From the NCBI GenBank assembly GCA_945893365.1, contig CAMDED010000036.1, positions 1-55,139 of the forward strand: DNA of 55,139 nt, in the 5' to 3' direction. Source of the stretch: Candidatus Sulfopaludibacter sp. SbA3. Lineage in GTDB: Bacteria; Acidobacteriota; Terriglobia; Bryobacterales; Bryobacteraceae. Every line of letters starts with the position of its first letter. Position 1 is the first letter of the stretch. Below, one piece after another: positions 1 through 51,146 of the stretch. The notes beneath the pieces are model-generated. The model ran no database searches. It was not told the DNA's origin and saw only the letters and a program-made list of their open reading frames with translations. The translations under genes were made by a program, and so were the position numbers.

Positions 1-315
<315 letters not shown>

Positions 316-350
316 TGGTGTTGGCATAGTAGGGTTAAGATAGGAGCTAT

Positions 351-503
351 ATGGCCAGGGAAATTATCACGTTCCAGTGCACCGAGTGCAAAAACCGCAA
401 TTATTCGGGCACGAAGAATAAGAAGACAACGACGGAGCGGCTTGAAATGAAGAAGTTCTGTCCGTCCTGCCGGAAGCACCAGCCGCACAAGGAAATCAAG
501 TAA
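351..503 (+). CDS. rpmG: Ribosomal protein bL33
   Basis: A 50-residue protein of the normal bL33 length. It begins [18 protein letters not shown] and ends [10 protein letters not shown]. Two CxxC pairs (Cys10/Cys13 and Cys37/Cys40) form a zinc ribbon, so this is the zinc-binding (C+) type. The protein is a structural component of the large ribosomal subunit. The start at 351 is supported by an AGGAG element at 343-347. It lies between tuf and tRNA-Trp, the usual position in the tuf-secE-nusG region. Confidence 0.96.
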
Positions 504-514
504 GCTGTGAGTGG

Positions 515-589
515 AGGGGCGTAGGTTTAACGGCAGACCAGCGGTCTCCAAAACCGCGAGTGGGGGTTCGAATCCCTCCGCCCCTGCCA
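515..589 (+). tRNA. trnW: tRNA-Trp (anticodon CCA)
   Basis: A 75-base cloverleaf. The acceptor stem AGGGGCG pairs with CGCCCCT, followed by an encoded CCA at 587-589. The anticodon stem GCGGT/ACCGC encloses the loop CTCCAAA with anticodon CCA at 548-550. The T arm contains GGTTCGAATC. It lies 11 bases after rpmG and 18 bases before secE, so it is probably cut from the tuf-rpmG-secE-nusG transcript. This placement of tRNA-Trp before secE is common in bacteria. Confidence 0.97.
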
Positions 590-607
590 ATTCGAGGCGG
601 GATCGCT

Positions 608-832
608 ATGGAAGCAATCGAGAGAATCAAAGAGTGGCCGGCGGCAACGAAGAACTATGTCGGCGAGCTGCAACTGGAAATGAAGCGCGTAACCTGGCCG
701 AACAGGAATCAGGTTCAGGCTACTACTTTGGTGGTGATCCTGACGGTATTCGCGTTCGCGGCCTATTTCGCCGTAGTCGACGCGTTGCTGACTCGCAGCA
801 TCACGAAGATTTACGCCGTGCTTACCAAGTAA
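608..832 (+). CDS. secE: Preprotein translocase subunit SecE
   Basis: A 74-residue protein. It has the SecE pattern of an amphipathic stretch, the conserved ELQLEMKRVTWPNRNQV, and one membrane segment at about residues 39-60 (TTLVVILTVFAFAAYFAVVD). This is the short one-span form, unlike the three-span E. coli form. SecE clamps SecY in the inner-membrane Sec channel. I chose the ATG at 608 because the GAGGCGGG element at 594-601 precedes it and family homology starts there. An in-frame GTG at 560 would read through the tRNA. nusG follows after 24 bases, the classic secE-nusG pair. Confidence 0.95.
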   Translation: MEAIERIKEWPAATKNYVGELQLEMKRVTWPNRNQVQATTLVVILTVFAFAAYFAVVDALLTRSITKIYAVLTK

Positions 833-856
833 AACATCAGACGACTACTGTGTCAC

Positions 857-1519
857 ATGGACGGCGAATACATGAACGAAGGCATCTTGCCAGAGAGCGA
901 AGTGGTGGAAATCGGGGTGGTTGAAGAGGCGCCGGTCGAATCCGGCTCTTCCCTTGAAGTCGCGGACAGCGTGGACGCGCCCGCCCTCCCCGCTAAGAAT
1001 TGGTATATCATCCATACCTATTCCGGTTTTGAGCAAAAGGTGGCCGAGTCGTTGCGCACGCGGTCGCAGGCCTTCGGTTTCGCCGAACAAATCGGCCAGA
1101 TCCTGATTCCGGTTGAAGAAGTCGTCGAATTGCGCGCAGGCAAGAAGGTCACCAGCAAGCGTCTGGTTTTTCCGGGCTATGTGCTCGTCGAGATGGAAAT
1201 GAGCGACGACTTGTGGCACCAAGTCAAGAATACGCCGCGCGTCACGGGCTTTGTCGGCGGAGGCACCACTCCGGTGCCGCTCACTCCGGCGGAGGTTGAC
1301 GGCATTTTGAACCGGCAGGCCGCCTCTGCGGATCGCCCGCGTCCGAAGATGACGTTTGAAAAGAATGAGACGGTACGCATCGTCGACGGCCCGTTTGCGA
1401 ATTTCACCGGCAAAGTTGACGAAGTGAACATGGAGCGGAATACGCTTCGCGTGCTGGTTACCATCTTCGGGCGTGCGACGCCGGTCGAGTTGGATTTTCT
1501 ACAAGTGGAGAAGGGTTAG
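857..1519 (+). CDS. nusG: Transcription termination/antitermination protein NusG
   Basis: 220 residues. After an acidic N-terminal extension of about 47 residues comes the NGN domain, starting at [19 protein letters not shown] and including [12 protein letters not shown] and [10 protein letters not shown]. The C-terminal KOW domain follows ([19 protein letters not shown] ... [14 protein letters not shown]). NusG binds the RNA polymerase clamp and couples transcription to Rho or to the ribosome. A second in-frame ATG lies at 872; neither start has a strong ribosome site, so the first 5 residues are uncertain. The acidic extension makes it longer than the 181-residue E. coli protein; such extensions are common outside Proteobacteria. 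Confidence 0.95.
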
Positions 1520-1560
1520 CGCGCGCCGCACTGGCCGCGCGGGAGCATTGAGGATTTCGT

Positions 1561-1989
1561 ATGGCAAAGAAAGTAACAGGACAGGTCAAGCTTCAGATTC
1601 CCGCCGGGAAGGCGACGCCGGCGCCGCCGGTCGGTACCGCGCTCGGTCCGCAGGGCGTCAACATTATGGACTTCTGCAAGTCCTTTAACGCCAAGACGTC
1701 GGCCAAGGATCAGGAAGGCTTGATCATTCCGGTGGTTATCACGATCTTCTCGGACCGCACCTTCACGTTCATCACGAAGACTCCCCCGGTTCCGGTGCTG
1801 ATCAAACGCGCCGTGGCCATCGCCAAAGGTTCGGCCGAACCTCATAAGACGAAAGTGGGCAAGATTACCGAGAAGCAGATCGAGGAAATCGCTAAGATCA
1901 AGATGCCGGATCTCAATTGCTTCACGGTCGAGGCCGCGATGAACTCGGTGCGGGGCACGGCCCGCAGCATGGGCGTTGACGTCGTCTAG
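1561..1989 (+). CDS. rplK: Ribosomal protein uL11
   Basis: 142 residues, full length. It opens [20 protein letters not shown], has the proline-rich hinge [20 protein letters not shown] and the rRNA-binding C-terminal domain ending [11 protein letters not shown]. It forms the L7/L12 stalk base and is needed for factor binding and for RelA activation. It follows nusG by 41 bases. Normally rplA comes next, often within 100 bases, and rplJ, rplL and rpoBC follow; none of these is in the window. The sequence after the TAG at 1987-1989 is non-coding or degenerate. Confidence 0.97.
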
Positions 1990-2299: not shown

Positions 2300-2600
2300 A
2301 GATCCGATCCGTGCGTCCATTGAGCGTGCGCACGGATATTGCCGGCGCGACGCGATACTCGCTCCTTGGAGCGCCTGGCGGCTGAGATGCCGAACCCGCA
2401 TTCCACCTGATTGAGCCACGACGAGTACGTCGGGTGAAGTGGAAGCGGACATTGGCGCGGCTTTTCAGCCAACGGTCGTGTTTGGGTTTGTGCGCATTCA
2501 GGTTGTCCGGCGCCACGTGGATCCGGCGGTCCGGATTCGCGGCCACAATCTCGTTCATGAAGTCCGGAAACTCCCGGCGGCGCCGTTGATAGTGCGCAGT
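2300..2600 (-). pseudogene. IS630-family transposase remnant (C-terminal part, frameshifted)
   Basis: Reading the minus strand from about 2600, one frame gives RRREFPDFMNEIVAANPDRR, then IHVAPDNLNAHKPKHDRWL and ANVRFHFT. The frame then shifts to give SSWLNQVECGFGIS and shifts again to give LSRQALQGASIASRRQ. This is the order of the IS630 DDE transposase C-terminal half: the DNLNTHK Asp region, HFTPTHASWLNQVE with the catalytic Glu, then ILSRQALRGASF. At least two frameshifts and a missing N-terminal half make it inactive. No intact terminal repeats or TA target duplication could be assigned. It sits between rplK and an aldehyde dehydrogenase fragment, so it is a candidate cause of the break in the ribosomal cluster. 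Confidence 0.85.
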
Positions 2601-2720: not shown

Positions 2721-2985
2721 CGTCGACCGTTGGAACCATACACTGGGCCGCACGGGAGCAAGTGGACGCGGCCCGCGCTGTTGATGCGGGGGAGTTGCCG
2801 CTCGGCGATCGTGCGAAAGGCGCATCAAAGACCGCGCGGCTGGCGTGATGAGATGCCCGAAGCCGTTTGCCCGGCCGCTCTCCGAGGCGATTTCGCAGAG
2901 GAACAACCTGAGCGCAACCGGCGTCATATCGAAGTACGATGCCGCTCTGTCCTTTTGAATTTCCATGCTCCGCCGGGCGGAAGAG
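2721..2985 (+). pseudogene. Truncated, degenerate copy of aldehyde dehydrogenase 5' region (copy A)
   Basis: The sequence is a diverged copy of bases about 7161-7435 of the intact aldehyde dehydrogenase gene. TGGAACCAT at 2731 and AGTGGACGCGGC at 2761 match the intact gene, and 2810-2872 encodes IVRKAHQRPRGWRDEMPEAV against ILRKAHQRLLDRRDEMAEAV in the intact enzyme. The similarity then fades through the stretch corresponding to EVDRSALTLLFSAEE, and the reading frame is broken more than once. Nothing of the rest of the enzyme is present. The downstream PD40 gene begins at its decayed edge. Being on the same strand as the intact gene and 4.4 kb upstream, it is best seen as a direct partial duplicate. 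Confidence 0.8.
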
Positions 2986-4071
2986 ATGACGCCGCGTCAT
3001 CGGCCGGTTCGGATCGCGCAGTTCCGCCCCGGCCATTGCTGGTGGACCGCCCTGGCGGCGCGAGCGCTCGCTACCCTCGCGGCCGCGGCTTGGTTCCAAC
3101 CTGGCGCTACCGCGCAGCAGCGAAGCATCGGAACAATTGTCTACACGCATGCGCCGGACGGAAGTGATCCTTGGCCAGTCACCGATATCTATTCCATCAC
3201 CGGCAAATCGCTCGTAAAGGCGCTCACCAACGACGGGCACAGCCACAACCCGACCTGGTCGCCGGATGGACGGCGCATCTTGTTCATCCATGATTCCACT
3301 CTGCAAACCGCACCGGCTTATCGAGAGGAAAAGCAATTCGAGTCTCACCATCCGGTTGAACTCCATGTGATGGACGCCGACGGCGGCAACCGCCATCTGC
3401 TTCGACGTCTGGAGCCTGTGATCTACAGCGCGGCGTGGTCCCCGGATGGAAGGACTCTCGCCGTGACTTCGCTGCCCGAAACACGGGTTGATCGTCCAAC
3501 CAAGGCGGATGAACCGATGCGGGCCGGTCTCTTCCTTTTACCGGCGACCGGTCAAGATGAACCGAGGCTGCTGTTCCGAAACGCCTTTACGCCCTCGTGG
3601 TCGCCAGATGGACGGAGACTTGCCTTCTCCGTGGAAAAGCCCCGTGGCCAGTGGTCGGTGCATACCGGAAAGGTTGACGGATCCGGTGATATCCAGCTCA
3701 CCGATCCAAGGCGCAATGAAGGATCTCCGGCCTGGTCCCCCGACGGCAAACGGATTGCGTTCGATGAATTTGCCGCCGAAGGCCGGCAACAGATATTGGT
3801 GATGGATGAGGATGGCACTCATGTGCGGCAACTCACAAGGAATCCAAACTGGTCGTGCGGACATCCCTCGTGGTCGCCGGATGGAAAGCAAATCGTGTTT
3901 TCCTGCCGCTCGACAGCAGGCTCCTGTGGGATGGGCGTCTCCTCGACCGGGCAGATTTTGCCGCCATGCGTTCGCAGGCTCTTCATCGCCTCCTTGCGCG
4001 ATGCCGCGTCCGAGCCGACGCGAATTAACGATCACGACAGCGCGTCTCCCGCATTTGCGCCGGCTCCTTGA
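2986..4071 (+). CDS. Exported TolB-like PD40 beta-propeller protein
   Basis: 361 residues from ATG 2986, which has GGAAGAG at 2979-2985 just before it (a longer frame begins at 2965 inside the aldehyde dehydrogenase remnant). The N-terminus looks like a signal peptide (an Arg-rich start, hydrophobic ALAARALATLAAAAWF, then GATAQQ). Five or more WD40-like PD40 repeats follow: NPTWSPDGRRILFI, SAAWSPDGRTLAVTS, TPSWSPDGRRLAFSV, SPAWSPDGKRIAFDE and HPSWSPDGKQIVFSC. Such propellers are periplasmic or extracellular and usually mediate protein contacts; no catalytic residues are evident. The gene stands alone between two partial copies of the aldehyde dehydrogenase gene, which suggests it arrived by insertion. 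Exact role unknown. Confidence 0.8.
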   Translation: MTPRHRPVRIAQFRPGHCWWTALAARALATLAAAAWFQPGATAQQRSIGTIVYTHAPDGSDPWPVTDIYSITGKSLVKALTNDGHSHNPTWSPDGRRILFIHDSTLQTAPAYREEKQFESHHPVELHVMDADGGNRHLLRRLEPVIYSAAWSPDGRTLAVTSLPETRVDRPTKADEPMRAGLFLLPATGQDEPRLLFRNAFTPSWSPDGRRLAFSVEKPRGQWSVHTGKVDGSGDIQLTDPRRNEGSPAWSPDGKRIAFDEFAAEGRQQILVMDEDGTHVRQLTRNPNWSCGHPSWSPDGKQIVFSCRSTAGSCGMGVSSTGQILPPCVRRLFIASLRDAASEPTRINDHDSASPAFAPAP

Positions 4072-4113
4072 GAGGACGGGGACCCTGGCTCCGCATGTGG
4101 CAAACCTCAAGGC

Positions 4114-4165
4114 GTGGGAACCATCTCTCCGCCGTCCCGGAGCATGTGGACGCGGCTCTCACCGG
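4114..4165 (+). pseudogene. Short direct copy of aldehyde dehydrogenase 5' region (copy B)
   Basis: About 50 bases nearly matching 7170-7217 of the intact gene: GTGGGAACCATCT, a few differing bases, then CCGGAGCATGTGGACGCGG against CCGGAGCACGTGGATGCGG. Beyond 4165 the similarity stops. It lies 100 bases beyond the 3' end of the restriction endonuclease gene. With the intact gene on the far side, the restriction-modification pair is therefore bracketed by direct repeats of this sequence. Confidence 0.7.
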
Positions 4166-4266
4166 TGGTTCCAGAGAAGAACAGTTCCGCGGCCGGGTCC
4201 CGAAATGGCCCCGTTGCTCAACGCACAGCCGCCTTGGAAGTGTAGCATCCAGGCTCGTTCGCACGC

Positions 4267-5209
4267 TCAGGCATACGGTCCCAAGAACCTTTCTCCGTCA
4301 AAGTGAATCAGATGGGAAGGTGCATCAGCGCACCACACCTCCGTCTCCCAGGCGATATCGGAAAGGTAGCGAGTCATCACCGGACGTGAAGGGAATGCGG
4401 TTACAAAAACGAGGCCCGCAATCGATCCGGCAAACAGACAAGACAGTTCGCCATGTCGCTTGCCATCTACCGGACCGTGGCTCGTCACGGACTCGACGAG
4501 CAGCAGCCATTTCTTTTCCGGGTAATACAGCACAACATCCGGCATCTTGCCGTGGCCATCCACGAGCACGCCGAGCTTTGTCAGCAACTCCCTATCGAAG
4601 TATCCATTTATCTCCCGTGTCGCCGGCGTAGATCAGGACGCCGCGAGGGACGAAGCGTGGCGCGAACTCCTCGACAATCGCCTTGATCAGCTCGCTATGA
4701 TCGCCTGGACTTAGTCGTATCGTATCGCCGGTGGCAAGGGTAACCGGCAATTTTTGCATCTCCCGCTGTCTTGCGTAACGCGCCGCGAGCGTCTGCCTGC
4801 CGCTCAGGTATGCCTCAAGGTTTTTGTTCCATACGGCGGCGCCGAACGTCCGCAACAGCGCCAGTGTAGTGGGCTCGATCTGGTAAACCGCCTTCGGACT
4901 GTTCACCGGCCTTGCAGGATTGTCCGGGTTATACAGAACAATGCCCGCTGCGACAAGTTGATGGATGGTTTGCCGCCGGAAAGTTTCGCGCGAATTCGGG
5001 GCATACTGTTTACCGTACGCGTCGCGGGCAAAATCCATGATGGGCGTTATCCCCACCAGAGGATTTTCCGCCAGCGTCCATGCCTTCCCTTTCGTCAAAT
5101 TGAGCAGCGCCAGCAAGCACAATGCAGATCGGCTGTTTTGCTGGGCTCGTGGCATACCCATCTCCTCAAGGACCTGCAATGCGTCAACGACCTTGTCTTC
5201 TTCGGCCAT
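4267..5209 (-). pseudogene. BsuBI/PstI-type restriction endonuclease, split by a frameshift
   Basis: The gene reads in two pieces. The first (5209 down to about 4603) begins MAEEDKVVDALQVLEEMGMP and holds the N-terminal helical domain up to YAGDTGDKW, then hits a TAG. The second (about 4603 down to 4267) continues YFDRELLTKLGVLVDGHG and contains the catalytic region PDVVLYYPEKKWLLLVESVT, SHGPVDGK and the family ending HLIHFDGERFLGPY. Removing one base near 4603 (between the codons for Trp and Tyr) restores one frame of about 313 residues, normal for this family. The start at 5209 has GGAAG before it and overlaps the methylase end by 26 bases. The truncated first piece lacks the PD-(D/E)xK centre, so restriction is probably lost unless the shift is an assembly error or recoded. 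Confidence 0.85.
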
Positions 5210-6794
5210 GCAGTGCTTCCACTTGATTGTCAATCATCTCTTGCGTGACTCCGGCCTGCGCCTGCATCCACCGGCCGAGTTCTTCCAGTGCCTTCGTCTC
5301 CGGGTATCGAAGAAAGCGGAGGTCCGTCGCGTTCACTTGCGTATGCCCGCTGAATCGTCGGAAGTAATCGTCTACCGCTGTTGAATTGAGGAACACGCTA
5401 AGACCATACGCGACATCGCGGGCGATGCCCTTCTTCCCGGAATGGAACACGTTGAGGTGGTTTTCAAAGCCGATGGCGTCGGACCTGAAGGTTTCCGGAT
5501 CGACTACATGCGCAACGATGCGGCGGCGTTCCTCCTTCGACGAGAAACGCCGAACGATCGTGTAGAAGCCGTTCGGGTAGAGCCACTTCTTCGTTTCGTG
5601 GTTGTTTATGATCGCGCTGGGTTTTTTCGACTCCCGAGGCCACTCCATCTTGCCGTTTGCAAAATGCGCCGGGTACAGCAGCGGCGCCGTCCCCTTCTCA
5701 GGGCCGGTGCGCAGAAACTCTCTCAGCCTGAAATCTACGACCGGACCCGTTGAGACTTCAAGGCCGATTTCTTTCAGGGAGCGCTCCGCCAGCGGGACGC
5801 CCTTGATGCCGGTCTGCGTCGGCGTCACCGGTACGTGGATGAATTTCTGCTCATCGTCATCGTGAACTATTTCGGCGAACGGGTACTGGTGCAATTGCAG
5901 GTCGGTGAAGCTTGTGTCGCTTGAAGTCGAGATTGTCACGTTGCCTTGCCGCTTTCCACGAACAATCTTGATGATGACGTTTTCCTGCAGGACCTCGTCG
6001 TCGTTGAACGCACTCGTGCGGCTATGGAACAAGTGAATACGCTCTACGGCGGTTTTCGCCAGCATCCACTCACGAAAAGGCTTGTAGTAAAGCCCGTTGC
6101 AGAAGCTTCGCGGAATGATCGCTACGATTTCTCCTCCCTCTCCCATCAACTCGATCGACAGGCCAAGGAACGCAGTGTAGAGGTTGACAGTTTCGAGCCC
6201 GATTGCACGCAGCAAGGCTCGATGGATAGAGTCGCTGGCAATTTTCTTGTACGGCGGATTCAGGATCGCGTGCGTAAACCCCGCGCCTTTCTTGCCAAGC
6301 GTGATTTTGTAGGCGGCATCCTGAATAAAGTCGAGGTCGATAATGGACGCCTGCAAACCTTTTCCCCAACGTGCAAGCGTCTCTCTCAGGTGCGTCGCTA
6401 GAGTTCCATCGATCTCATAGGCGGTTGTGCAAACGCCGTCCTCGCCCCACTTGTCGATGAACGCCGCCGTCAAAGAGCCCACTCCCGCGCCAGCGTCCAA
6501 CAGCCGCACCAAGCCTCTTCTGTCGGAAAACAAAGACGCCATGAATCGGGCCACGGCCGCGGGGGTCATGAATTGGCCAAGATCCACCTTGCGCCGCGAA
6601 TCCAACTCTTTATTGGCGTCCAAACGCACTCGATCCACAATTTGTAGCTCCACGCCTTCAGGCGCCGCGCTCATGAACTGTGTTTCTGTATCGCCATCTG
6701 TTCGAGCCTCCGGTAGAGCTGCGGGGGAGAACCCGTCAAGATCCGTACCGATGCTTTTATCTCCGCGTGCATTTCCCTCCTTTCCCTCGGTCAT
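5184..6794 (-). CDS. BsuBI/PstI-type adenine-specific DNA methyltransferase
   Basis: 536 residues from ATG 6794. The frame is open further, to a TTG at 6953, but that extension has no family similarity that I can see. It carries the AdoMet-binding motif I (LLDAGAGVGSLTAAF), the acidic AYEID of motif II, and catalytic motif IV NPPY in FTHAILNPPYKKI, the gamma-type N6-adenine signature. The lead-in KVDLGQFMTPAAVARFMASL is typical of this type II family. Known members recognise CTGCAG and methylate its adenine; that specificity is a family inference here. The gene is intact and lies directly before its endonuclease, which is broken. Base composition looks less GC-rich than the flagellar genes, consistent with transfer. 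Confidence 0.88.
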   Translation of the reverse strand: MTEGKEGNARGDKSIGTDLDGFSPAALPEARTDGDTETQFMSAAPEGVELQIVDRVRLDANKELDSRRKVDLGQFMTPAAVARFMASLFSDRRGLVRLLDAGAGVGSLTAAFIDKWGEDGVCTTAYEIDGTLATHLRETLARWGKGLQASIIDLDFIQDAAYKITLGKKGAGFTHAILNPPYKKIASDSIHRALLRAIGLETVNLYTAFLGLSIELMGEGGEIVAIIPRSFCNGLYYKPFREWMLAKTAVERIHLFHSRTSAFNDDEVLQENVIIKIVRGKRQGNVTISTSSDTSFTDLQLHQYPFAEIVHDDDEQKFIHVPVTPTQTGIKGVPLAERSLKEIGLEVSTGPVVDFRLREFLRTGPEKGTAPLLYPAHFANGKMEWPRESKKPSAIINNHETKKWLYPNGFYTIVRRFSSKEERRRIVAHVVDPETFRSDAIGFENHLNVFHSGKKGIARDVAYGLSVFLNSTAVDDYFRRFSGHTQVNATDLRFLRYPETKALEELGRWMQAQAGVTQEMIDNQVEALHGRRRQGR

Positions 6795-7086
6795 CTCGGG
6801 TTCATCGCTGACGAATTGTTCAAATAGCCCTAACTGCACCACGTTACACCATATTTGTAAATCAAGGCGATCCTTTCCATCCTTCCAACTTGCCGCAATG
6901 GTAGTGCGGCAGCCCGCCGAATTTGCTCCCGATAAATTTCGGTGCTTTGGCAAGCTCGTTCAGCGCCAAATTCGAGATGCATAGGCGTGAGACGGGAGCG
7001 AGGCCCGCGCTGAAGCTTCTGCGGAGCTAATGCAGAGGCGCCGCGGATCGACGCCGGACGCAGTCCGCCTGGAGGATAATCGCTTC

Positions 7087-8505
7087 ATGGAATATCCGAT
7101 GCATATCGGCGGACGTCCGGCGACCTCCGCTTCCCGCCAGGATGTCGAGCTGCCCTACGACGGTTCGGTGGTGGGAACCATCTACCGCGCCGCCCCGGAG
7201 CACGTGGATGCGGCTCTTGCCGCCGCCGCCGCTGCCGCGCCCGTGATGCGGGAGCTGTCGCTCGACGAACGCTCGACGATCCTGCGAAAGGCGCACCAAA
7301 GACTGCTCGACCGGCGCGACGAGATGGCCGAGGCCGTTTGCTCGGAGACGGGCAAACCCATCAAGGAAGCGCGGCTCGAAGTGGACCGCTCCGCGCTGAC
7401 TCTGCTGTTTTCCGCGGAGGAGGCGCACCGTCTGCGGGGCGAGGTTGTGCCGATGGACGCGTCGCCCGCCGGCAAGGGCCGCATGGCAATGACCGTCCGC
7501 GAACCCGTGGGAGTGATTGCGGCCATCACGCCTTTCAACTTTCCGCTCAACCTCGCCATGCACAAGATCGGCCCGGCGATCGCCGGGGGAAACTCAGTCG
7601 TGCACAAGCCCGCTTCCGCCACGCCCATCAGCGCGGTGAAAATGGCGGGCATTTTCGAAGAGTGCGGCTTGCCCGCGGGCGCACTCAACGTGATCACCGG
7701 GCCGGGCGGTTCGATTGGCGACGCTCTGGTTTTCGATCCGCGCGTGGCGATGGTGACCTTCACGGGCAGCGTGGAAGTGGGGCTGCGAATCCGCAACCTC
7801 GCGGGCATGAAGCGCGTGACGCTTGAACTGGGATCGAATTCCGCCGTCATCATCGAAGACGACGCCGATTTGAGCGATGCCGTCGCGCGCTGCGTGGCCG
7901 GCAGCTTCGCCCACTCCGGACAGGTCTGCATCTCCGTCCAGCGCATCTTCGTGCACCGCAAGATCCGCGCCGAATTCCTGGAACGGATGGTCGAAGGCAC
8001 GACGAAACTAACCATAGGACACCCTCGCGAGCCTTCAACGGATATCAGCTCGCTGATTACCGTTGGCGAGGCCGAGCGCGTCGAGGGGTGGATTGGAGAA
8101 GCCGTAAGGGCGGGAGCGCGGCTTGCCGCCGGCGGGGCGCGGCGCCGTTCAACGATCGAACCGGCCGTGCTGACGGATGTGCCGGATACGGTCAGCCTCT
8201 CCTGCCGCGAAGCTTTTGGTCCGGTCGTAGGCGTAAACGTCTACGACACGCTCGACGAGGCCATCTCACTCGTCAACGCTTCCGAGTACGGTTTGCAGGC
8301 CGGCATCTATACCCGCGATATTCACAAGGCGTTCCTTGCCGCCCGCAAGGTTCACGTGGGCGGCTTCATGATCAACGACGTGCCCCAGTACCGCGTGGAC
8401 CAGATGCCTTATGGCGGGGTCAAGCTGAGCGGCGCGGGACGAGAGGGTCCGCGCTACGCGATCGAGGAGATGACCGAGCCGAAGCTGATCTGCTGGAAAG
8501 TGTGA
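7087..8505 (+). CDS. NAD(P)-dependent aldehyde dehydrogenase
   Basis: 472 residues, normal for the family. It begins MEYPMHIGGRPA; GGAGG at 7071-7075 precedes the ATG at 7087, which I prefer to an in-frame ATG at 7030. Seen in order: cofactor-binding region GVIAAITPFNFPLNLAMHKI, GNSVVHKPAS, the Rossmann glycine motif FTGSVEVG, the general-base Glu in VTLELGSNSA, the nucleophilic Cys in HSGQVCISVQRIF, and the C-terminal EAFGPVVGVNVYD. It oxidises an aldehyde to an acid; the motif set resembles lactaldehyde/glyceraldehyde-3-phosphate-type members, but the substrate cannot be told. No operon partner is visible: the sigma-factor gene starts 66 bases on. Two partial direct copies of its 5' region lie upstream. 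Confidence 0.92.
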   Translation: MEYPMHIGGRPATSASRQDVELPYDGSVVGTIYRAAPEHVDAALAAAAAAAPVMRELSLDERSTILRKAHQRLLDRRDEMAEAVCSETGKPIKEARLEVDRSALTLLFSAEEAHRLRGEVVPMDASPAGKGRMAMTVREPVGVIAAITPFNFPLNLAMHKIGPAIAGGNSVVHKPASATPISAVKMAGIFEECGLPAGALNVITGPGGSIGDALVFDPRVAMVTFTGSVEVGLRIRNLAGMKRVTLELGSNSAVIIEDDADLSDAVARCVAGSFAHSGQVCISVQRIFVHRKIRAEFLERMVEGTTKLTIGHPREPSTDISSLITVGEAERVEGWIGEAVRAGARLAAGGARRRSTIEPAVLTDVPDTVSLSCREAFGPVVGVNVYDTLDEAISLVNASEYGLQAGIYTRDIHKAFLAARKVHVGGFMINDVPQYRVDQMPYGGVKLSGAGREGPRYAIEEMTEPKLICWKV

Positions 8506-8571
8506 TCCGGTCCGGTACTTATTTCGCGGCCGTGCGTCCATTAGCAGTGGTAGAGAAATGACGAGAGGGAA

Positions 8572-9192
8572 ATGACCCCGAACGCGGCCGCATTGGAAAC
8601 CGCCGGACCGGTTGTCGAGCGAATGGAGGAAACGGACCTCATCCGGGCGGTTCAGCATGGGGACCGCGACGCCTTTGAACTCCTGGTGCGGAAGCACGAC
8701 CAAAGCGTGCTTCGGCTTGCCATGAACCTGCTGCGCTCCCCCGAGGATGCCCGCGACGCCTATCAGGAGGCCTTCCTTCGCGTCTACAAGAACATCCACC
8801 TGTTCCGCTTCGACTGTAGTTTCCACACCTGGCTGTACCGGATTGCGACCAACATCTGCCTCGATCATCTGCGGAAACGGAAGATCCGGCGCGAGGAGCC
8901 CGCCGTGGTCGACACGCTGGACGGTCAAATCAACCGCCTCGACCTGGCCGAAGAGGAGCGGCCTTCGGCCGACCCCGAGCGAAGCTTCAGGAACCGCCAG
9001 TTGAAGGCGAAAATAGCGGAGGCGCTTCGCCAACTGACGCCCCGCGAACGCGTGGTTTTCGAATTGCGCCACAATCGGGGAATGCGCCTGCGGGCGATTG
9101 GGGCCACTTTGGGCACCAGCGAAGAAGCCGCGAAGAATTGTCTTTTCCGCGCAACTCAAAAGATGCGCGGCGTGTTGGGAGATTACGTATGA
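8572..9192 (+). CDS. ECF-type RNA polymerase sigma factor
   Basis: 206 residues. Region 2 spans about residues 40-105 (ARDAYQEAFLRVYKNIHLF, FHTWLYRIATNICLDHLRKR). Region 4 spans about 145-200 (LRQLTPRERVVFELRHNRG, then a helix-turn-helix LRAIGATLGTSEEAAKN). There is no region 1.1 or 3, so this is a group 4 factor. GAGAGGGA lies directly before the ATG. Its stop overlaps the start of the anti-sigma gene (ATGA), so the two are translationally coupled. Such pairs are usually autoregulated and respond to envelope conditions; the promoter it reads cannot be told from here. Confidence 0.94.
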   Translation: MTPNAAALETAGPVVERMEETDLIRAVQHGDRDAFELLVRKHDQSVLRLAMNLLRSPEDARDAYQEAFLRVYKNIHLFRFDCSFHTWLYRIATNICLDHLRKRKIRREEPAVVDTLDGQINRLDLAEEERPSADPERSFRNRQLKAKIAEALRQLTPRERVVFELRHNRGMRLRAIGATLGTSEEAAKNCLFRATQKMRGVLGDYV

Positions 9193-10127
9193 CCTGTGAA
9201 TCGATCGTGCCGCGCCTGTCTCTTTATCTCTACGGCGAGCTGCCGGGAGAGGAAGAGGAGCAGCTTGAGGCGCACCTCGAAGGATGCGCGGTTTGCAGAA
9301 AGGAGTTCGCGACCCGGAAGGCCGTTCTGAGAGCCATCGACATGGATCAGCCGGAGATTCCCGAGACGCTGCTCACCGAGTGCCGGATGGAGCTGCGGGA
9401 GACTATCGCGAGGGCGGCGTCTCTTCGGAACCCGCCTCGGACCCTGCCCAGGAACTGGGGCTGGCTCGCTGAAACATTCGGGGCTCTTGGGGGCTGGTTC
9501 GGCGGTTTTCGGGTGCCGGTTGCCGCGTCCGCGTTGATCGCGGTGGGTTTCTTCGGAGCGCGACTCACGGCGCCGGCGCCTGGCGTACCGCCGCGGCCCG
9601 CTGAGCCGGCGGCGCTGATGTCCGCGGTGCGGTCGGTTGAGACGACTGCCGACGGCCGCGTGCAGATCGCTCTGGACGAAACGCGAAGGCGGACAGTCAC
9701 CGGCGCGATTTCCGACGCCGGAATCCGGGCGCTGCTGCTCGCCGCGCTGCGCGAGGAAGCCGACCCGGGCGTCCGCATGGAGTCGATGGATTTGCTGAAG
9801 GCGCAATCGGTGTCGTCTCGCGAAGTCAGGGAAGCGTTGATCGGCGCGCTCATTCACGATCCGGACGAAACTATCCGTCTGAAGGCGTTCGAAGGACTCA
9901 AGCAATCCGGGTCGGACGCCGGAACCCGTAAAGCCATGCTGTACGCGCTGACCGCCGATCAGAATTCGGGGCTCCGCGTTCAGGCGATAGATATGCTCAC
10001 CGGGCAGCAAGACCGCGAACTCGTGGGCGTGTGGCAAGCTTTGCTCGAAAGAGAACAGGATCCGTACATCCGCATGCGATGCCGGAAGGAGCTGCAAGCC
10101 ATGAACGCTTCCGTCGGAACGTTCTGA
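9189..10127 (+). CDS. Anti-sigma factor with zinc-finger head, membrane span and HEAT-repeat domain
   Basis: 312 residues from the ATG at 9189 that overlaps the sigma-factor stop. The N-terminus is a ZAS-type anti-sigma domain: SLYLYGELPGEEEEQLEAHL followed by the H-x3-C-x2-C signature (His29, Cys33, Cys36). One likely membrane span sits near residues 108-126 (VPVAASALIAVGFFGA), followed by a Pro/Ala-rich linker. The last 150 residues are helical repeats of HEAT/PBS type (ALREEADPGVRMESMDLLKA, DPDETIRLKAFEGLKQSG, ADQNSGLRVQAIDMLTGQ). By analogy the head binds the neighbouring sigma factor in the cytoplasm, while the HEAT domain is outside and could sense a partner protein; that sensing role is inference. 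Confidence 0.85.
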   Translation: MTCESIVPRLSLYLYGELPGEEEEQLEAHLEGCAVCRKEFATRKAVLRAIDMDQPEIPETLLTECRMELRETIARAASLRNPPRTLPRNWGWLAETFGALGGWFGGFRVPVAASALIAVGFFGARLTAPAPGVPPRPAEPAALMSAVRSVETTADGRVQIALDETRRRTVTGAISDAGIRALLLAALREEADPGVRMESMDLLKAQSVSSREVREALIGALIHDPDETIRLKAFEGLKQSGSDAGTRKAMLYALTADQNSGLRVQAIDMLTGQQDRELVGVWQALLEREQDPYIRMRCRKELQAMNASVGTF

Positions 10128-10197
10128 GCCGCGTCATCGCGGCAGGCAGGTGACATTCCGAATTCGGATTCGTCGAATAAGGCAGGGAGAACTAATC

Positions 10198-11085
10198 ATG
10201 AAAACACTAATAATTGCAGGCGCGGCTGCCTGGGCGGCGGCACTCGGGTTGGCACAGGACGTACCGCCGCCGGCGCCGCCGGCCCCTCCAGCGGTGCGCG
10301 CCGTGAGAGCCCGCGCGTTGCTGGGTGGCGAGGGTGGAAGCTATCTGGGTATCGGCGTGGTGGAGATCGAGGCGGAGCGCGCGAAGGCCCTCAAACTGAG
10401 CGAGGAGCGAGGCGTTGAGGTCAAGAGCGTCGACGAGGAGGGTCCCGCATCGAAGGCCGGATTGAAGGAAGGCGACGTGGTCCTCGAATACAATGGGCAG
10501 CGCGTCGAAGGGACGGAACAGTTCGTGCGGATGGTGCGGGAAACACCCGCCGGGCGGCAATCGAAATTACTGATTTCCCGCGGAGGCGCCACGCAGACCG
10601 TACTAGCGACCATCGGACGCAGACCGCGGGTACAGTTCGGAGTGTTCTCGATTCCGGAAATCCCCGATCCCCCGCGAATGCTGGATATTCCACGGCCGGC
10701 CATGGGATGGAGGAGCTCGGTGCTCGGCATAGAAACGGAGTCGCTCGAATCGCAGCTTGCGGCCTTCTTCGGGGTCAAGGAAGGCGTGCTGGTGAAGTCG
10801 GTAGCCAAGGATTCGGCTGCCGGGAAGGCCGGCGTTCAGGCTGGAGACGTTATCGTGAAGGTGGACGGGACGAAGGTCGGCACGCCGCGGGAGATATCGA
10901 ACGCGCTCAAGTCCGGCAAGAAGACGATTGCGCTCACCGTGGTGCGCCGCCAGAAGGAAATGAATCTTGAGGTGACGCTGGGCGACGAACACCGGAGGCG
11001 CGGCCACATGGCTCCCGCTATTGCCGGCGGCTTACCTGAAAATTCTGAACTCCTGGAATTGCTTGACGATCGCGGGGAGCTTTAG
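10198..11085 (+). CDS. Exported protein with two PDZ domains
   Basis: 295 residues from ATG 10198, preceded by AGGGAG. A signal peptide is clear: MKTLIIAGAAAWAAALGLAQ, followed by a proline-rich stretch. Two PDZ domains follow, near residues 45-130 (SYLGIGVVE, GPASKAGLKEGDVVLEYNGQ) and 175-260 (SVLGIETESL, SAAGKAGVQAGDVIVKVDGT). There is no Ser-His-Asp protease domain as in DegP/HtrA, so it is a PDZ-only protein. It follows the sigma/anti-sigma pair on the same strand after 70 bases and may be part of the same envelope-response module or its target. PDZ domains usually bind C-terminal tails of partner or misfolded proteins. Confidence 0.85.
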   Translation: MKTLIIAGAAAWAAALGLAQDVPPPAPPAPPAVRAVRARALLGGEGGSYLGIGVVEIEAERAKALKLSEERGVEVKSVDEEGPASKAGLKEGDVVLEYNGQRVEGTEQFVRMVRETPAGRQSKLLISRGGATQTVLATIGRRPRVQFGVFSIPEIPDPPRMLDIPRPAMGWRSSVLGIETESLESQLAAFFGVKEGVLVKSVAKDSAAGKAGVQAGDVIVKVDGTKVGTPREISNALKSGKKTIALTVVRRQKEMNLEVTLGDEHRRRGHMAPAIAGGLPENSELLELLDDRGEL

Positions 11086-20048: not shown

Positions 20049-21296
20049 TTAACGTTTCAGATTCAAAGTCTCCTGACTCAGCTCGTCCGAGGTGGTGATG
20101 ACTCGGGAGTTGGCCTGGTACCCTCGCTGGAGAATGATCAGATTGGTGAACTCCTGCGCGATATCGACGTTCGAGGACTCGAGCGCGCCACCCGTCACTT
20201 TGCCGCGGCCCCCGGTGTCGGCCACGCCGATCGCCGGCAGCGCCGAATTGGCGCCAAGCAGGAAATTGTTGTTGCTGGCGGCCAGCAGGGAGTCCGGATT
20301 CCGGATCGCGGCGAGCGCCAGTTGCGCCACCACGCGTTGCTGGCCGTTTGAGAACTGCGCGACCACGCGGCCCCCTTCGGCGATCGCGACGCCGATCAAT
20401 TGGGAAGCCGCGGAACCGTTAACCGCGTTGGCTGAGACCGCCGAAGGGTGAGTGAACTGAGTGATTCGCGGCACGGCGGGGCTGGAGAACAACCCCCATG
20501 TCAGGTCCATGTCCGCGGCGCCGGAAACCAGGCCCGTTATCGGAATCCCCGTGAGGTCGGCCGTCGGATCGATGAGCTTGCCCTGAGTATCGAAGGTGAG
20601 CGGCGTGGCCGAGGTGAGCACCGTAACGGTTGCGGCCGGGTCGCCGACGTCGGCTCCGGGCACCGTCGCGACATAGTCCCACTGACCCGCGGTCGCCGTC
20701 TTGGTGAGGGTCACCGTAAGCACGTGCGGCTGGCCCAGGGAGTCGAAGACGTTGAGCGGCGCGGAAGACATTTCGCCCGCCAACGCGCCGGCGTTCAAGT
20801 TCATGTCGATCGAAAAAATAGTCGTCGCCAAGGGCGGCTGGATGCTGCCCAGCGGCAGGATGATGTCTTGAATGGCGCCGGACGTGTCGAGCACGCCGTT
20901 CGTCTCGGTCCACCCCTGTACCGCCTCGCTCGAGACCGTAATCACTTTCCCCGTTGCATCCGTGCGGAAGTTTCCCGCCCTGGTGTACATCGTGGCGTTT
21001 TGCGCGTTATGGACGATGAAAAAACCTTCTCCCTGGATGGCGACATCCATCGGGCCGCCGGTACCCTGGATCGCGCCTTGAGTGTTTTGGCGGGATGCGC
21101 GCGGCGGAGTTACGCCAAGGCCCACCGTCGTCGAGCCGTCTGCAGCCAGAGACTGCGCGACCAATTCTCGAAAGGACGCCGTGCTGCCCTTGAATCCGGT
21201 GGTGTTGAGGTTCGCCAGATTGTGGCCAACGATGTCGATTGCGCTGGCGTGCGCGTTCAATCCGGCAAGGGCGGTCGATAGTGCGGTTCTTCCCAT
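20049..21296 (-). CDS. flgE: Flagellar hook protein FlgE
   Basis: 415 residues. The N-terminal rod/hook signature is clear (LAGLNAHASAIDIVGHNLAN, LNTTGFKGSTASFRELVAQ). The middle contains the hook domains (GEGFFIVHNAQNATMYTRAG, NVFDSLGQPHVLTVTLTKT). The C-terminal signature is VDIAQEFTNLIILQRGYQAN, SRVITTSDELSQETLNLKR. It polymerises into the hook outside the outer membrane. flgD, its cap protein, lies immediately upstream and fliN downstream. Confidence 0.95.
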   Translation of the reverse strand: MGRTALSTALAGLNAHASAIDIVGHNLANLNTTGFKGSTASFRELVAQSLAADGSTTVGLGVTPPRASRQNTQGAIQGTGGPMDVAIQGEGFFIVHNAQNATMYTRAGNFRTDATGKVITVSSEAVQGWTETNGVLDTSGAIQDIILPLGSIQPPLATTIFSIDMNLNAGALAGEMSSAPLNVFDSLGQPHVLTVTLTKTATAGQWDYVATVPGADVGDPAATVTVLTSATPLTFDTQGKLIDPTADLTGIPITGLVSGAADMDLTWGLFSSPAVPRITQFTHPSAVSANAVNGSAASQLIGVAIAEGGRVVAQFSNGQQRVVAQLALAAIRNPDSLLAASNNNFLLGANSALPAIGVADTGGRGKVTGGALESSNVDIAQEFTNLIILQRGYQANSRVITTSDELSQETLNLKR

Positions 21297-24262: not shown

Positions 24263-25054
24263 ATGATTCGAGCATTGTACAGCGCGGCGAGCGGCATGTC
24301 CGCACAGCAGTTGAACGTAGACAACATCGCCCACAACCTGGCGAACGCCAATACCACCGGATTCAAGATGCGCCGGGCCCAGTTTCAGGATCTGCTCTAC
24401 CAGAGCATGATCCAGCCGGGCGCGGCCGCGGGGGCGCAGACCACGGTGCCTAGCGGACTGCAGATCGGCCTGGGCTCGCGCGCGTCGTCGAATGAGATCG
24501 TCTTCTCGCAGGGAAACTTCGCCGCGACCAATAACCCTTACGACATGGTAATCCAAGGCCGCGGTTTCTTTCAGGTGCGGCGGCCTTCGGGGGACTTGGC
24601 CTACACTCGCGCGGGCGCCTTCCACGTGGATCGCGACGGCAACATGGTAACCTCCGACGGGGACGCTCTCGAGCCCCAGATCACCATTCCAGCCGACGCT
24701 CAGTCGATTTCGATCGCAGCGGACGGAACCGTCAGCTATAACCAGCCGGGTCAAACCGCGGCCCAACTGGCCGGCCAGGTCCAACTTGCGAATTTTCAGA
24801 ACCCGGCCGGGTTGAACAGCATCGGAAAGAACCTGTACACTCCCACCGACGCCTCCGGGGAGCCCGCCGTCGGGAACCCGGGAGGGCAGGAAGGCATCGG
24901 CGAGATTCTGCAAGGCTATCTCGAACAATCGAACGTGAGCGTTGTCGACGAGTTCATCAACCTCATCGTGAGCCAACGCGCTTATGAGGCCAATTCCAAG
25001 GTTGTGAAGGCCGCCGATGAAATGTATCAACAGGCGAATAATGTCACGCGGTAG
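24263..25054 (+). CDS. flgG: Flagellar distal rod protein FlgG
   Basis: 263 residues, normal length. N-terminus MIRALYSAASGMSAQQLNVD, NIAHNLANANTTGFKMRRAQ; the typical FlgG segments QDLLYQSMIQPGA and PYDMVIQGRGFFQV are present, and the C-terminus is SNVSVVDEFINLIVSQRAYE, ANSKVVKAADEMYQQANNV. It forms the distal rod that passes through the P and L rings. A ribosome site AGGAGCGG lies before the ATG. flgA overlaps its last 14 bases. Confidence 0.96.
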   Translation: MIRALYSAASGMSAQQLNVDNIAHNLANANTTGFKMRRAQFQDLLYQSMIQPGAAAGAQTTVPSGLQIGLGSRASSNEIVFSQGNFAATNNPYDMVIQGRGFFQVRRPSGDLAYTRAGAFHVDRDGNMVTSDGDALEPQITIPADAQSISIAADGTVSYNQPGQTAAQLAGQVQLANFQNPAGLNSIGKNLYTPTDASGEPAVGNPGGQEGIGEILQGYLEQSNVSVVDEFINLIVSQRAYEANSKVVKAADEMYQQANNVTR

Positions 25055-39415: not shown

Positions 39416-40573
39416 ATGCTTACGAAATTGGTCAAAGCCGTGAAGCACACCATCGATAGGTGGACTCGTAGCCTCCGCTCGTATATCGCCGGCCTGGAGC
39501 CTGCCCCCTTGTGGGACCGGGCAGTCGTTTTCCTTGGCTTTGCTCTAGTAGCGGCCCTGGTGCCCGCCGCGATTTGGGCCATCAAAGAGATTCCCCGCTG
39601 GCAGGTGAACGAACTCATCGCGCTCATCGCCATCCGGGATCCTGTCCGGGCGTTCGAGCTCGAGAACGAAGCGCGGAAAACGCTGACCCAGATCGTCCTG
39701 GGCGTGTTCGGCCTGATCGTTCTCTTTTTTACGTGGAGGCGTGTTCGAGCCAACGATCGGAACGTACGCGTAATAGAACAGGGGCACATCACAGACCGAT
39801 ATACGAAGGCAATCGAGCAATTGGGAAAAGTGGAGGGGGACAATCCGAATATCGAGGTGCGGCTCGGCGCGATCTACGCCCTGGAAAGGATCGCCATCGA
39901 TTCTCCACGCGACCAATCGACGATCGTTGAGGTGCTCTCGGCCTATGTCCGCCGCAATGCGCCCTGGCCTCCCGCACTTCAAGAGGGCAAGGAGGAACCG
40001 TCAGGACCACCAAGGACCGACGTCCAGGCAATTTTGACTGTTCTCGGCGGACGCCCTCGAGGTAAGAAACGAGAGAAAGAGGGGCTGTCGATAGACATCA
40101 ATGGGTCTGACTTGCGAAAAAGTGACCTCGGGGGAGCCCACTTGGAAGGCGCGGACCTCAGGGGAGCCCATCTCGAAGGCGCGTACCTCAGGGAAGCCCA
40201 CCTGGGAGGCGCGGACCTCGAAGGAGCCCGACTGGAAGACGCGTATCTCGAGGGTGCCGACCTGGAAGGCGCAAGCCTCTGGAGAGCCCATCTGGAGCGC
40301 GCGGACCTCGAAGGTGCCCACTTGCAAGGAGCGAACCTCTCGGGAGCCAACCTGGAAGGCGCGAGCCTCTGGAGAGCCCATCTGGAAGGTGCGGACTTCG
40401 GGTTAGCCATCCTGGAAGGCGAGGGCAGTAGGGGAGCCAACCTAAAAGGCGCAAGGCACCTGACTATCGATCAGGTTAGAAGCGCCCAGAACTGGAAGCA
40501 TGCCATTTACGACCATGATTTTAGGCAACTGTTGGGACTCGTAGACGAAGGTATCCCAGAGCACACAGAATAG
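39416..40573 (+). CDS. Membrane-anchored pentapeptide-repeat protein
   Basis: 385 residues. Two membrane spans are near residues 38-62 (VVFLGFALVAALVPAAIWAI) and 91-112 (TQIVLGVFGLIVLFFTW). A conserved linker domain comes next: HITDRYTKAIEQLGKVEGDN, EVRLGAIYALERIAIDSPRD, IVEVLSAYVRRNAPW. It is found in many proteins that end in pentapeptide repeats. From about residue 228 to 350 there are roughly 24 A(D/N)LxG-type pentapeptides (SDLGGAHLEGADLRGAHLEG and so on), predicted to form a right-handed beta-helix. The final 35 residues are different (LTIDQVRSAQNWKHAIYDHD). Function unknown; some such proteins act as defence effectors or DNA mimics. Confidence 0.85.
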   Translation: MLTKLVKAVKHTIDRWTRSLRSYIAGLEPAPLWDRAVVFLGFALVAALVPAAIWAIKEIPRWQVNELIALIAIRDPVRAFELENEARKTLTQIVLGVFGLIVLFFTWRRVRANDRNVRVIEQGHITDRYTKAIEQLGKVEGDNPNIEVRLGAIYALERIAIDSPRDQSTIVEVLSAYVRRNAPWPPALQEGKEEPSGPPRTDVQAILTVLGGRPRGKKREKEGLSIDINGSDLRKSDLGGAHLEGADLRGAHLEGAYLREAHLGGADLEGARLEDAYLEGADLEGASLWRAHLERADLEGAHLQGANLSGANLEGASLWRAHLEGADFGLAILEGEGSRGANLKGARHLTIDQVRSAQNWKHAIYDHDFRQLLGLVDEGIPEHTE

Positions 40574-48338: not shown

Positions 48339-51146
48339 CTATTTCGCGCCGGCCACCAGCGTTCCGCATGATCGCAATTGCGCGGCCGCACGGTCGCGCT
48401 CCGCCGCGTACACCTTTGTGAAGCCGGGCTGTTTCTCAATCTCGCGCCAGGCCGCCACGCTCTTTTGGAACCAGCCGCAGGCTTCTCTGCGATCCAGGCC
48501 GCGCTGAGATAACTCGGCGGTTCTTTGTCTCGCCAGGGATTGGTGCGCGGCCGCCATCCAGCCGTAAGACTGCGGCGCCGCCGCCAGCGTCCGAATGCTT
48601 CCGGAGTCGACTGTTCTCAGTTCCTCCGCCAAAGCCACGCCCTTTCGTCCGGCGCCGATCGCTCCCTGCCGGTCGCCCGACTCCGCAAGAGCGGCGCTGA
48701 AACGGGCATATGTTTCAGCTAGAATGCGGCGCACCGTGCGGTCCTTGGGGTCCACCTCCGTCGCGCGCTCACCTACTTCAACCGACCGCCGGTAGCTCCG
48801 TAGCGCCCCGTCGATATCGTGGATTGCCATTTTCCGATCCCCGGAGCGGCGCGCCACAAAAGTGAGATTCATCCTGATCCGCATGTTCCCAGGATCTTTC
48901 GCGGCCAGTTCCTCCATGAGGCGGAGGGACTTGTCGAAAATCCCGATCGCCTCCTGGTGGCGCGCATTCTCCGGTATCGCATTACCCACGCGCATCAGGC
49001 TAATGGCGAAATCGCTCCTGGCCCGCGAGTCGGATGGGTCCGCGGCCGCCAGAGCCTCTCCGATCGCGAGCATCTTGCGGTAGTTTTCGAGCGCGCCCGC
49101 CGTGTCGCCGAGGTTTGGAGAAGCCGGGTTTCCCAGAACGTCGCCGACGTGGCTGTAGGCCAGCATCAACTCGCGCTTGAGAGTCGAATTCGAAGGGTCT
49201 TCGGCGGAAAGCGCCAGTTGCTCGGCAAGAGCGCGCTTGTAGCTCTCGAGCGCCCCCGTGAGGTCGCTCAATCGCGCTTGCATGATACCGATGTCCGCAT
49301 TGCAGTCGGCGATCGCCCGGCGTAGACCGCGATCTTCAGCCTCCTCCGCCGCCAGTTCCAGGTAAAGCGTGAGCGACTGGCGGGAGCTCTCGAGCGCCTG
49401 AGCGTTCTGCTGCATCAAGCCGCGAGCCCGCGACACCCACCTGAAGGCTTCCGCCAGGGATCGCTTCGCCCGCCGGCTCGATGGGTCCGCCTCGGCCAGT
49501 TCCCGCGAAATCGCGAGCCCCGTTTCGTAGCTTTCGAGCGCGCCGCCCGCGTTGCCGGTGTAAGACAGGATGTCGCCGATTCGCCCATGCACGGTGGCGA
49601 TCGCAATCCGCACGTCCTCGTCCAGCCGGTCTTCCGCCGCCGATTCCAGAATTCGAAGGGCCTTCCGGTAGCTCTCGATCGCTCCCGCCGTGTTCCCCAG
49701 ATTCGGCGTAAGAACGTGCCCCTGCACGTCGCCGATCTTCTGATAGGCCGCCGCAAGATCGCGTTGGAGGCTCAGATCGCCCTTCGCATCCTTCGCCACG
49801 TTGTTCAGGTACTCGAGCGCCTTGCTCACGAGCATCTCGCGGGCGCGCGTCGATCCCGGGATTTCACTGATCGCGTCGTGGATGTCGAACAGAAAGGAAT
49901 TCGCCAGTTTGCGGCCCTGTTCAAAGCGCCTTTCGGCGCGCCTTGCCTGATAGGAGGTCGTGAGGATCCCTCCCACGAGCGACGCAACCAGCAGCACGGC
50001 CGCGGCCACGCTTGCCCGGTGCCTCATCAGAAACTTCCCGAGCTGGTAGCGCCAGGAGTCTTCCCGCGCGATCACCGCCCGCCCTCTCAAATGCCGCCGT
50101 ATGTCCTCGGAGAACTGCTCCGCCGACGCGTAGCGGTCCTGAGGGCTCTTGCTCATCGCCTTTCGCACGATCGCATCAAGATCCCCTGAAAGCCGTTTCT
50201 GCAAAGCTGCGCCGGGAGCGGACTCACTCAATCTTGGAACTTCCCGCGAGCAGATTGCACGCTCGACTTCGTCGCGCGTGTAGGTCGTAATGCGGTGCGG
50301 CCTCTTTCCCGAAAGCAGCTCGTAGAGCACCGCGCCGAGAGAGTAGATATCGGTCGCGGTCGTGATGGATTCTCCACGCGCCTGCTCCGGACTGGCGTAT
50401 TCGGGAGTCAGCGGAAGCGTGGCGCTCGACACGGCCGTGTCCTCCCCGGACGGATCCGCGAGTTTGGCGATTCCGAAATCGAGCAGCTTCACCGTGCCGT
50501 CTTCCGTCACGAGAATGTTCCCCGGTTTCAGATCCCGGTGAACCACCAGATTCTGGTGGGCATAGTGGACTGCCAGGCAAACGCTTCGGAAGAGCTTCAG
50601 CCGGTTCGAAACGCTCAAGCGCCGCTTGATGCAGTAATCGACAATGGGCGTCCCGGCGATGTATTCCATCACGAGATAGGGCGCGCCTTCCTCGGTACTG
50701 CCGCCGTCGAGCAGCCGCGCGATGTTCGGATGCTCCAGGTTGGCCAGAATCTGCCGCTCGTCCCGGAAGCGTTGAAGGATGGAATCCGTGCTCATCCCGC
50801 GCTTTACGAACTTGATGGCGACGTGCTTCTCGAAGTGATCGTCCGCCCTTGCCGCCAGGTAGACCGCTCCCATCCCGCCACGGCCGATCTCGCGGATCAA
50901 GCGGTACGCGCCAATGCGCCGCCCCTCGTGCCAAGTGACGCCGTCCGGATCGAATGTCGCAACCGCGGAGCGCACGGTCTCTTCGATCACCCCGTTTCCG
51001 TCGTGCGCCAGCAGAGACTCCACCTCCGCGCGCAGCTCGTTGTCGGCGCCGCAGGATTCGCCAAGAAACTCCGCCCGCCGGTCTGGATTCCGCTCGAGCG
51101 CGGCCAAAAACAAGCCCTCGATCCGCTGCCAACGTTCGGGTGTCAT
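48339..51146 (-). CDS. Membrane Ser/Thr protein kinase with TPR-repeat outer domain
   Basis: 935 residues from ATG 51146, which overlaps the sigma-factor stop (ATGA). The kinase domain covers about residues 78-340: glycine loop IGRGGMGAVYLAARADDHFE with Lys in VAIKFVKRG, catalytic loop VVHRDLKPGNILV, DFG in KLLDFGIAKLAD and APE-like PEYASPEQARGESI. One membrane span follows (ASVAAAVLLVASLVGGILTT, about residue 385). The last 500 residues are TPR repeats (GAIESYRKALRILESAAED, GALESYKRALAEQLALSAED and others). The first 60 residues (MTPERWQRIEGLFLAALERN) are typical of Acidobacterial kinases of this type. It probably senses an outside partner through the TPR part. Confidence 0.92.
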   Translation of the reverse strand: MTPERWQRIEGLFLAALERNPDRRAEFLGESCGADNELRAEVESLLAHDGNGVIEETVRSAVATFDPDGVTWHEGRRIGAYRLIREIGRGGMGAVYLAARADDHFEKHVAIKFVKRGMSTDSILQRFRDERQILANLEHPNIARLLDGGSTEEGAPYLVMEYIAGTPIVDYCIKRRLSVSNRLKLFRSVCLAVHYAHQNLVVHRDLKPGNILVTEDGTVKLLDFGIAKLADPSGEDTAVSSATLPLTPEYASPEQARGESITTATDIYSLGAVLYELLSGKRPHRITTYTRDEVERAICSREVPRLSESAPGAALQKRLSGDLDAIVRKAMSKSPQDRYASAEQFSEDIRRHLRGRAVIAREDSWRYQLGKFLMRHRASVAAAVLLVASLVGGILTTSYQARRAERRFEQGRKLANSFLFDIHDAISEIPGSTRAREMLVSKALEYLNNVAKDAKGDLSLQRDLAAAYQKIGDVQGHVLTPNLGNTAGAIESYRKALRILESAAEDRLDEDVRIAIATVHGRIGDILSYTGNAGGALESYETGLAISRELAEADPSSRRAKRSLAEAFRWVSRARGLMQQNAQALESSRQSLTLYLELAAEEAEDRGLRRAIADCNADIGIMQARLSDLTGALESYKRALAEQLALSAEDPSNSTLKRELMLAYSHVGDVLGNPASPNLGDTAGALENYRKMLAIGEALAAADPSDSRARSDFAISLMRVGNAIPENARHQEAIGIFDKSLRLMEELAAKDPGNMRIRMNLTFVARRSGDRKMAIHDIDGALRSYRRSVEVGERATEVDPKDRTVRRILAETYARFSAALAESGDRQGAIGAGRKGVALAEELRTVDSGSIRTLAAAPQSYGWMAAAHQSLARQRTAELSQRGLDRREACGWFQKSVAAWREIEKQPGFTKVYAAERDRAAAQLRSCGTLVAGAK

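Follow-up and report, generated by a model that had tools for sequence, protein, structure and literature searches.

Decayed partial copies of an aldehyde dehydrogenase gene around a PD40 gene and a BsuBI/PstI-type restriction-modification operon in Candidatus Sulfopaludibacter

Introduction

The insertion of a restriction-modification (R-M) system with a long duplication of its target was reportedly described by Nobusato et al. in 2000. Pseudogene fragments at rearrangement points are, as a matter of general knowledge, partial and decayed lineage-specific copies that lie near the parent gene and accompany a change in gene order. R-M systems of the BsuBI/PstI type, among which PstI recognises CTGCAG, combine an endonuclease and an Eco57I-type methyltransferase in one operon. 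According to one published account, R-M systems can insert with long, variable target duplications and are linked to inversions and translocations (PMC3031569).

The locus presented here resembles each of these in part. It shares with target-duplicating insertion the direct host-gene repeats on both sides of an R-M unit, while differing in that these repeats lie off the unit, the native gene start remains with the right copy and the left repeats are two and unequal. It has the fragments and the altered gene order expected of pseudogene scraps at a rearrangement point, with the distinction that the two fragments share one left edge. Its R-M operon has the BsuBI/PstI-type composition and is unusual in possessing a split endonuclease gene and the relic of a ribbon-helix-helix controller gene in front.

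Results

Organisation of the window

The window (the whole stretch of DNA that was analysed, 55,139 nucleotides) corresponds to contig C36 of a 7.9 Mb draft genome in 299 contigs, the nearest named relatives of which are MAGs labelled Acidobacteria or Bryobacterales. It opens with genes which, based on their translations, we take to be tuf, rpmG, secE, nusG and rplK, with tRNA-Trp between rpmG and secE. These are followed, in this order, by a transposase-like relic, copy A, a PD40 gene, copy B, the R-M pair on the minus strand and an intact aldehyde dehydrogenase gene, 3' of which lies a sigma-factor-like gene. The features are as follows:

2339..2586, strand not given, transposase-like relic, with five further matches (76-84%) in the same genome
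2729..2874, plus strand, copy A, a decayed partial copy of dehydrogenase gene bases 7171-7345 with approximately 29 nt missing (local alignment)
2965..4071, plus strand, PD40 (beta-propeller) gene between A and B (Pfam PD40, 4.6e-34)
4114..4164, plus strand, copy B, likewise partial and decayed, matching gene bases 7171-7217 (up to 7222 if scored leniently)
4267..5233, minus strand, BsuBI/PstI-type endonuclease gene, split in two frames (PF17728 and PF06616 on 4592-5233; PF06616 on 4267-4587)
5184..6674, minus strand, methyltransferase gene with an Eco57I-type domain (ORF 5184-6953; Pfam Eco57I, 2e-9)
6668..6766, minus strand, relic of a ribbon-helix-helix controller gene (profile match, E 4.5e-7, 33 of 56 positions; coordinates converted by hand)
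6767..6879, minus strand, conserved leader before the controller relic (sequence comparison with related loci)
7063..7086, plus strand, native leader of the dehydrogenase gene (similarity to genome G001 begins at 7063)
7087..8505, plus strand, intact aldehyde dehydrogenase gene (ATG at 7087; listed ORF 7030-8505; Pfam Aldedh, 5.5e-153)

The transposase-like relic contains no Pfam domain and is presumably of the IS630 type, judging by a motif. Apart from a tandem array at 40.1-40.5 kb (40124-40455), self-comparison of the window showed no repeats stronger than A and B. The same comparison revealed a 48-nt inverted pair at 21189-21236 and 24320-24367 (83% identity) and a weaker repeat set at 49011-49735. 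Searches were performed against a family set of 237 genomes, own genome included, in which the genus is otherwise represented by only G001 and G002.

Existence and extent of copies A and B

The preliminary description had proposed three direct dehydrogenase copies in the order A, PD40, B, R-M pair and intact gene, and alignment of the segments bears this out, as A and B are genuine partial copies with scores far above those of shuffled sequence. Local alignment of 1990-2964 with the dehydrogenase gene scored 94 and that of 4072-5200 scored 62, the maxima of 100 shuffles being 33 and 31, respectively. In agreement, blastn against the gene returned E values of 3e-19 (2799-2874) and 1e-5 (2729-2772) for A and of 1.5e-10 (4114-4159) for B. 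Both copies begin at gene base 7171.

The extents originally assigned to the copies required adjustment. Copy A, first placed at 2721-2985, is upheld for 2729-2874; beyond 2874 the alignment is not significant, since 2875-2985 (2990 in one test) gave p = 0.126 with the corresponding gene stretch and p = 0.16 with the whole gene under cheap gaps. Standard scoring did yield p = 0.002 for 2875-2985, through a 27-nt match to another place of the gene (7841-7867), and this candidate continuation of A was rejected. Copy B, first placed at 4114-4165, holds to 4159, or to 4164 when scored leniently. The left flanks of A and B display no significant homology to the gene start, and the tail of B cannot be aligned with A or with the gene beyond chance (p = 0.31 and 0.41). 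A 20-nt gap apparently common to A and B in a multiple alignment was discarded for this last reason. A possible fourth relic at 6954-7062 was likewise not counted: aligned to the gene it gave p = 0.02 under cheap gaps and 0.69 under standard scoring, and aligned to A, p = 0.06 and 0.84, respectively.

Across the 237 family genomes, copy B matches itself and the dehydrogenase gene only. Query 2640-2990, which spans A, returned beyond these two just three short matches (30-40 nt; E 1.5e-4 to 5.9e-4), which come from three other genomes, and no match to A or B elsewhere in the set is as strong as that to the gene of the same genome.

Origin and decay of the copies

Of the 146 aligned bases of copy A, 121 are identical to the own gene and 102 to the orthologue in G001. 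The two intact genes differ at 27 sites, where A has the base of the own gene 21 times, that of G001 twice and neither of them four times. In B, 41 of 46 aligned bases equal the gene, and all seven sites of this kind show the base of the own gene. Both copies therefore side with the own gene and were made after the split from G001. Judged from these alignments, A and B are evidently true lineage-specific duplicates of the dehydrogenase gene.

This affinity bears on two alternatives. The fragments might have been brought in with the acquired genes from a sister strain, a proposal in keeping with the sporadic occurrence of the PD40 and R-M units (see below) and with the G+C content of the endonuclease and methyltransferase genes (56-57% as compared to 62% in 8506-55139). 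Given that A and B are closest to the gene of their own genome and that no donor carrying such fragments occurs in the 237 family genomes (only two of them further members of the genus), such an import is improbable. The contig might also be a wrong join, the island not existing in this form: the genome is a draft, and the rplK-to-dehydrogenase junction was not observed in G001, the sole relative in which both sides were compared in detail. A and B resemble the own gene most closely and, as both differ from it, are not assembly duplicates; a wrong join is the least credible of the explanations considered, with very little likelihood.

Differences between A and the gene are spread over the three codon positions as 9/6/10, as opposed to 6/5/21 between the intact genes of the window and G001 (175 bases), and the decay of the fragments is unconstrained, as in dead sequence. 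The idea that unequal decay betrays two different ages is not sustained, as A differs from the gene at 25 of 146 sites and B at 5 of 46 (p = 0.36), and the 43 sites common to both contain nine and five differences, respectively (p = 0.38). Of the differences at these sites, two are common to A and B, six are confined to A and two to B; at one further site all three sequences differ. The two shared differences, together with the common left edge at 7171, hint at a single fragment; they are too few for proof of one origin, and the six A-only and two B-only differences fit two origins equally well, so that the counts as such lean to neither.

The intact gene and its upstream side

The G001 orthologue starts at the same methionine as ATG 7087. 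Similarity between 7063-11045, the extent to which the downstream side was checked, and positions 5006-8990 of locus L049 in G001 amounts to 79% (blastn) and begins 24 nt 5' of the start codon. G001 possesses a single dehydrogenase copy with neither a PD40 nor an R-M insert there; its upstream neighbour is a different one, however, and a clean empty site was not found. No dehydrogenase match was obtained in G002, which is 73% complete.

The upstream gene in G001 is a 1034-aa frame, which we take, from its motifs, to resemble a peptidase joined to a PHP-like domain. The own genome carries its counterpart in pieces, on contigs C184 and C199, and on C199 it has other genes after it. The dehydrogenase-reductase-like neighbour of rplK in G001 is located on contig C65 of the own genome. 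The upstream side of the intact gene is consequently a synteny break relative to G001. By appearance, as opposed to alignment, the frames upstream of the dehydrogenase in loci L065-L068 differ from one another.

Gene order beyond rplK was also noted. In the own genome rplK (within window positions 1-1989) and rplA (contig C103) are on separate contigs, and in G001 (L050) an unrelated convergent gene follows rplK; for these reasons the genus may have a disrupted ribosomal operon. In G004 an rplA-like frame adjoins rplK.

The acquired genes

The PD40 frame is open and encodes 368 aa. Of the 237 family genomes, own genome included, three have a PD40 relative at E <= 1e-60 and 31 a PstI-type endonuclease at E <= 1e-20, a patchy distribution in both cases. 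The endonuclease carries both PF17728 and PF06616, as befits the BsuBI/PstI type, yet does not form one open gene, being divided between frames 4592-5233 and 4267-4587. The endonuclease match falls into two pieces in five of the 31 genomes (G000, G242, G246, G249 and G250). The methyltransferase start at 6674 was set by analogy with the starts of related operons.

The controller profile was built from loci L146, L155 and L157 (PstI-type) and L114, with a cut-off of E below 1e-4. In addition to these it found the whole domain in L115, with lower-scoring or incomplete matches in L150, L149, L151, L144 and L147, such that the domain occurs in 8 of the 20 other PstI-type loci that cover the region (L156 and L160 do not extend over it) and in two of three XhoI-type loci. 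L110 of G001 is XhoI-type according to Pfam, and L114 and L115 are so called solely by the likeness of their methyltransferases to that of L110. Of three intact controllers submitted to Pfam, two exceeded the RHH_1 cut-off and one fell just below it (20.4 vs 20.5). Thus, a CopG-like (ribbon-helix-helix) controller and a conserved leader precede the methyltransferase genes of both PstI-type and XhoI-type operons.

At the DNA level, the window relic and leader are 79% identical to L114 (204 nt), 76% to L115 (195 nt) and 79% to L110 (106 nt), as against 60-66% to L146, L155 and L157 (91-179 nt); identity to L147 and L150 is 74% over 42 nt. In the window, a PstI-type methyltransferase gene is preceded by a relic of the XhoI-type controller version. 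Because relic and leader are closer to these XhoI-type loci than to the PstI-type ones, the comparison suggests that the controller module may have been exchanged between R-M systems of different specificity. The further idea that the R-M operon was inserted into an XhoI-type operon was toned down, since similar controllers precede several PstI-type operons; the nearness of the window leader to the XhoI-type kind stands regardless. A narrow search of the open-access literature yielded no description of ribbon-helix-helix controllers for PstI- or XhoI-type R-M systems. Another paper mentions ribbon-helix-helix regulators in toxin-antitoxin systems and contrasts them with the C proteins found in R-M systems (PMC3874152).

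Target duplication and control loci

The preliminary description held that the layout would fit two insertions with long target duplication, or repeated recombination at the same site. On the insertion reading, the R-M operon, and separately or earlier the PD40 gene, would have entered beside the dehydrogenase gene and duplicated its 5' part. Direct host repeats do flank each acquired unit, with B (4114) and the gene (7171) around the R-M pair and A and B around PD40, and long variable target duplications are on record for R-M systems (PMC3031569). Taking the R-M unit to extend from 4267 (endonuclease stop) to 6879 (end of leader similarity), the repeats do not abut it, as B is situated approximately 100 nt and the right copy approximately 290 nt away. 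The native gene start (7063-7170) lies with the right copy, between the unit and the repeat, and the flanks of the unit, 4165-4266 and 6930-7062, have no similarity to one another (p = 0.27 and 0.37). On these grounds a simple target duplication fits poorly; saving it would require a duplicated unit with its left end at 7063 or earlier and the trimming of both left copies to the same base.

PstI-type endonuclease loci from 22 of the 30 other genomes served as controls, of which L144, L156, L157 and L160 were set aside on account of having less than 1 kb on one side, leaving 18. Same-strand repeats across the operon at E <= 0.01 were observed in two (L146 and L152), which lends target duplication some support, and were lacking in the other 16; no repeat at any of the 18 loci abuts the operon on both sides. 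In L146 (G174) a perfect 23-nt direct repeat (2894-2916 and 7548-7570) encloses the PstI-type operon together with a gene that is presumably MerR-like; a distance of 72 nt separates one copy from the endonuclease end, and the second lies over 2 kb past the methyltransferase end. L152 has a 157-nt same-strand repeat and two shorter ones across its operon. At L148 the contig ends match each other over 22 nt on opposite strands. Flank repeats at PstI-type loci are therefore not the rule, with L146 and L152 as the exceptions. Overall, insertion of the R-M system with target duplication is a possible but unlikely source of A and B.

Discussion

An ordinary origin of A and B through rearrangement or repair is more likely than R-M insertion. 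The stretch from rplK to the dehydrogenase gene is probably, though far from certainly, a decaying island located where the chromosome was rearranged, with scraps left by rearrangement or repair beside acquired genes. The duplication, its timing relative to G001, the difference in gene order and the patchiness of the acquired units are direct observations, as is the unconstrained decay; the mechanism of copying, the order of events and the single original fragment we infer as follows. Once the lineages of this genome and of G001 had separated, rearrangement or repair would have left, as a side product, a copy of an inner part of the gene, from base 7171 onwards, on the left side of the intact gene. 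The copy would have arisen by templated copying at a junction or by a tandem duplication that was subsequently trimmed. A and B, which may descend from one original fragment, would then have drifted as dead sequence, while the sporadic PD40 gene and the PstI-type R-M operon came to sit between the scraps; the operon now has a broken controller and a split endonuclease gene. No intermediate state of the island was found in the genomes compared.

The left edge common to A and B is not explained by any simple model. Base 7171 could be a preferred edge of copying, from which short copies are laid at each junction with foreign genes by an IS-independent process linked to acquisition, a reading to which we attach very little probability, if marginally more than to a wrong join.

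Under the favoured reading of rearrangement or repair, A and B are ordinary decayed partial duplications at a rearrangement. Decayed local duplications beside an R-M system are easily mistaken for the footprint of R-M insertion, and the tests that separate the two are contact with the insert, the position of the native gene start and diagnostic sites against a genus-mate. If the shared edge does reflect a real process, the locus would offer a modest glimpse of the formation of gene scraps at rearrangement points.
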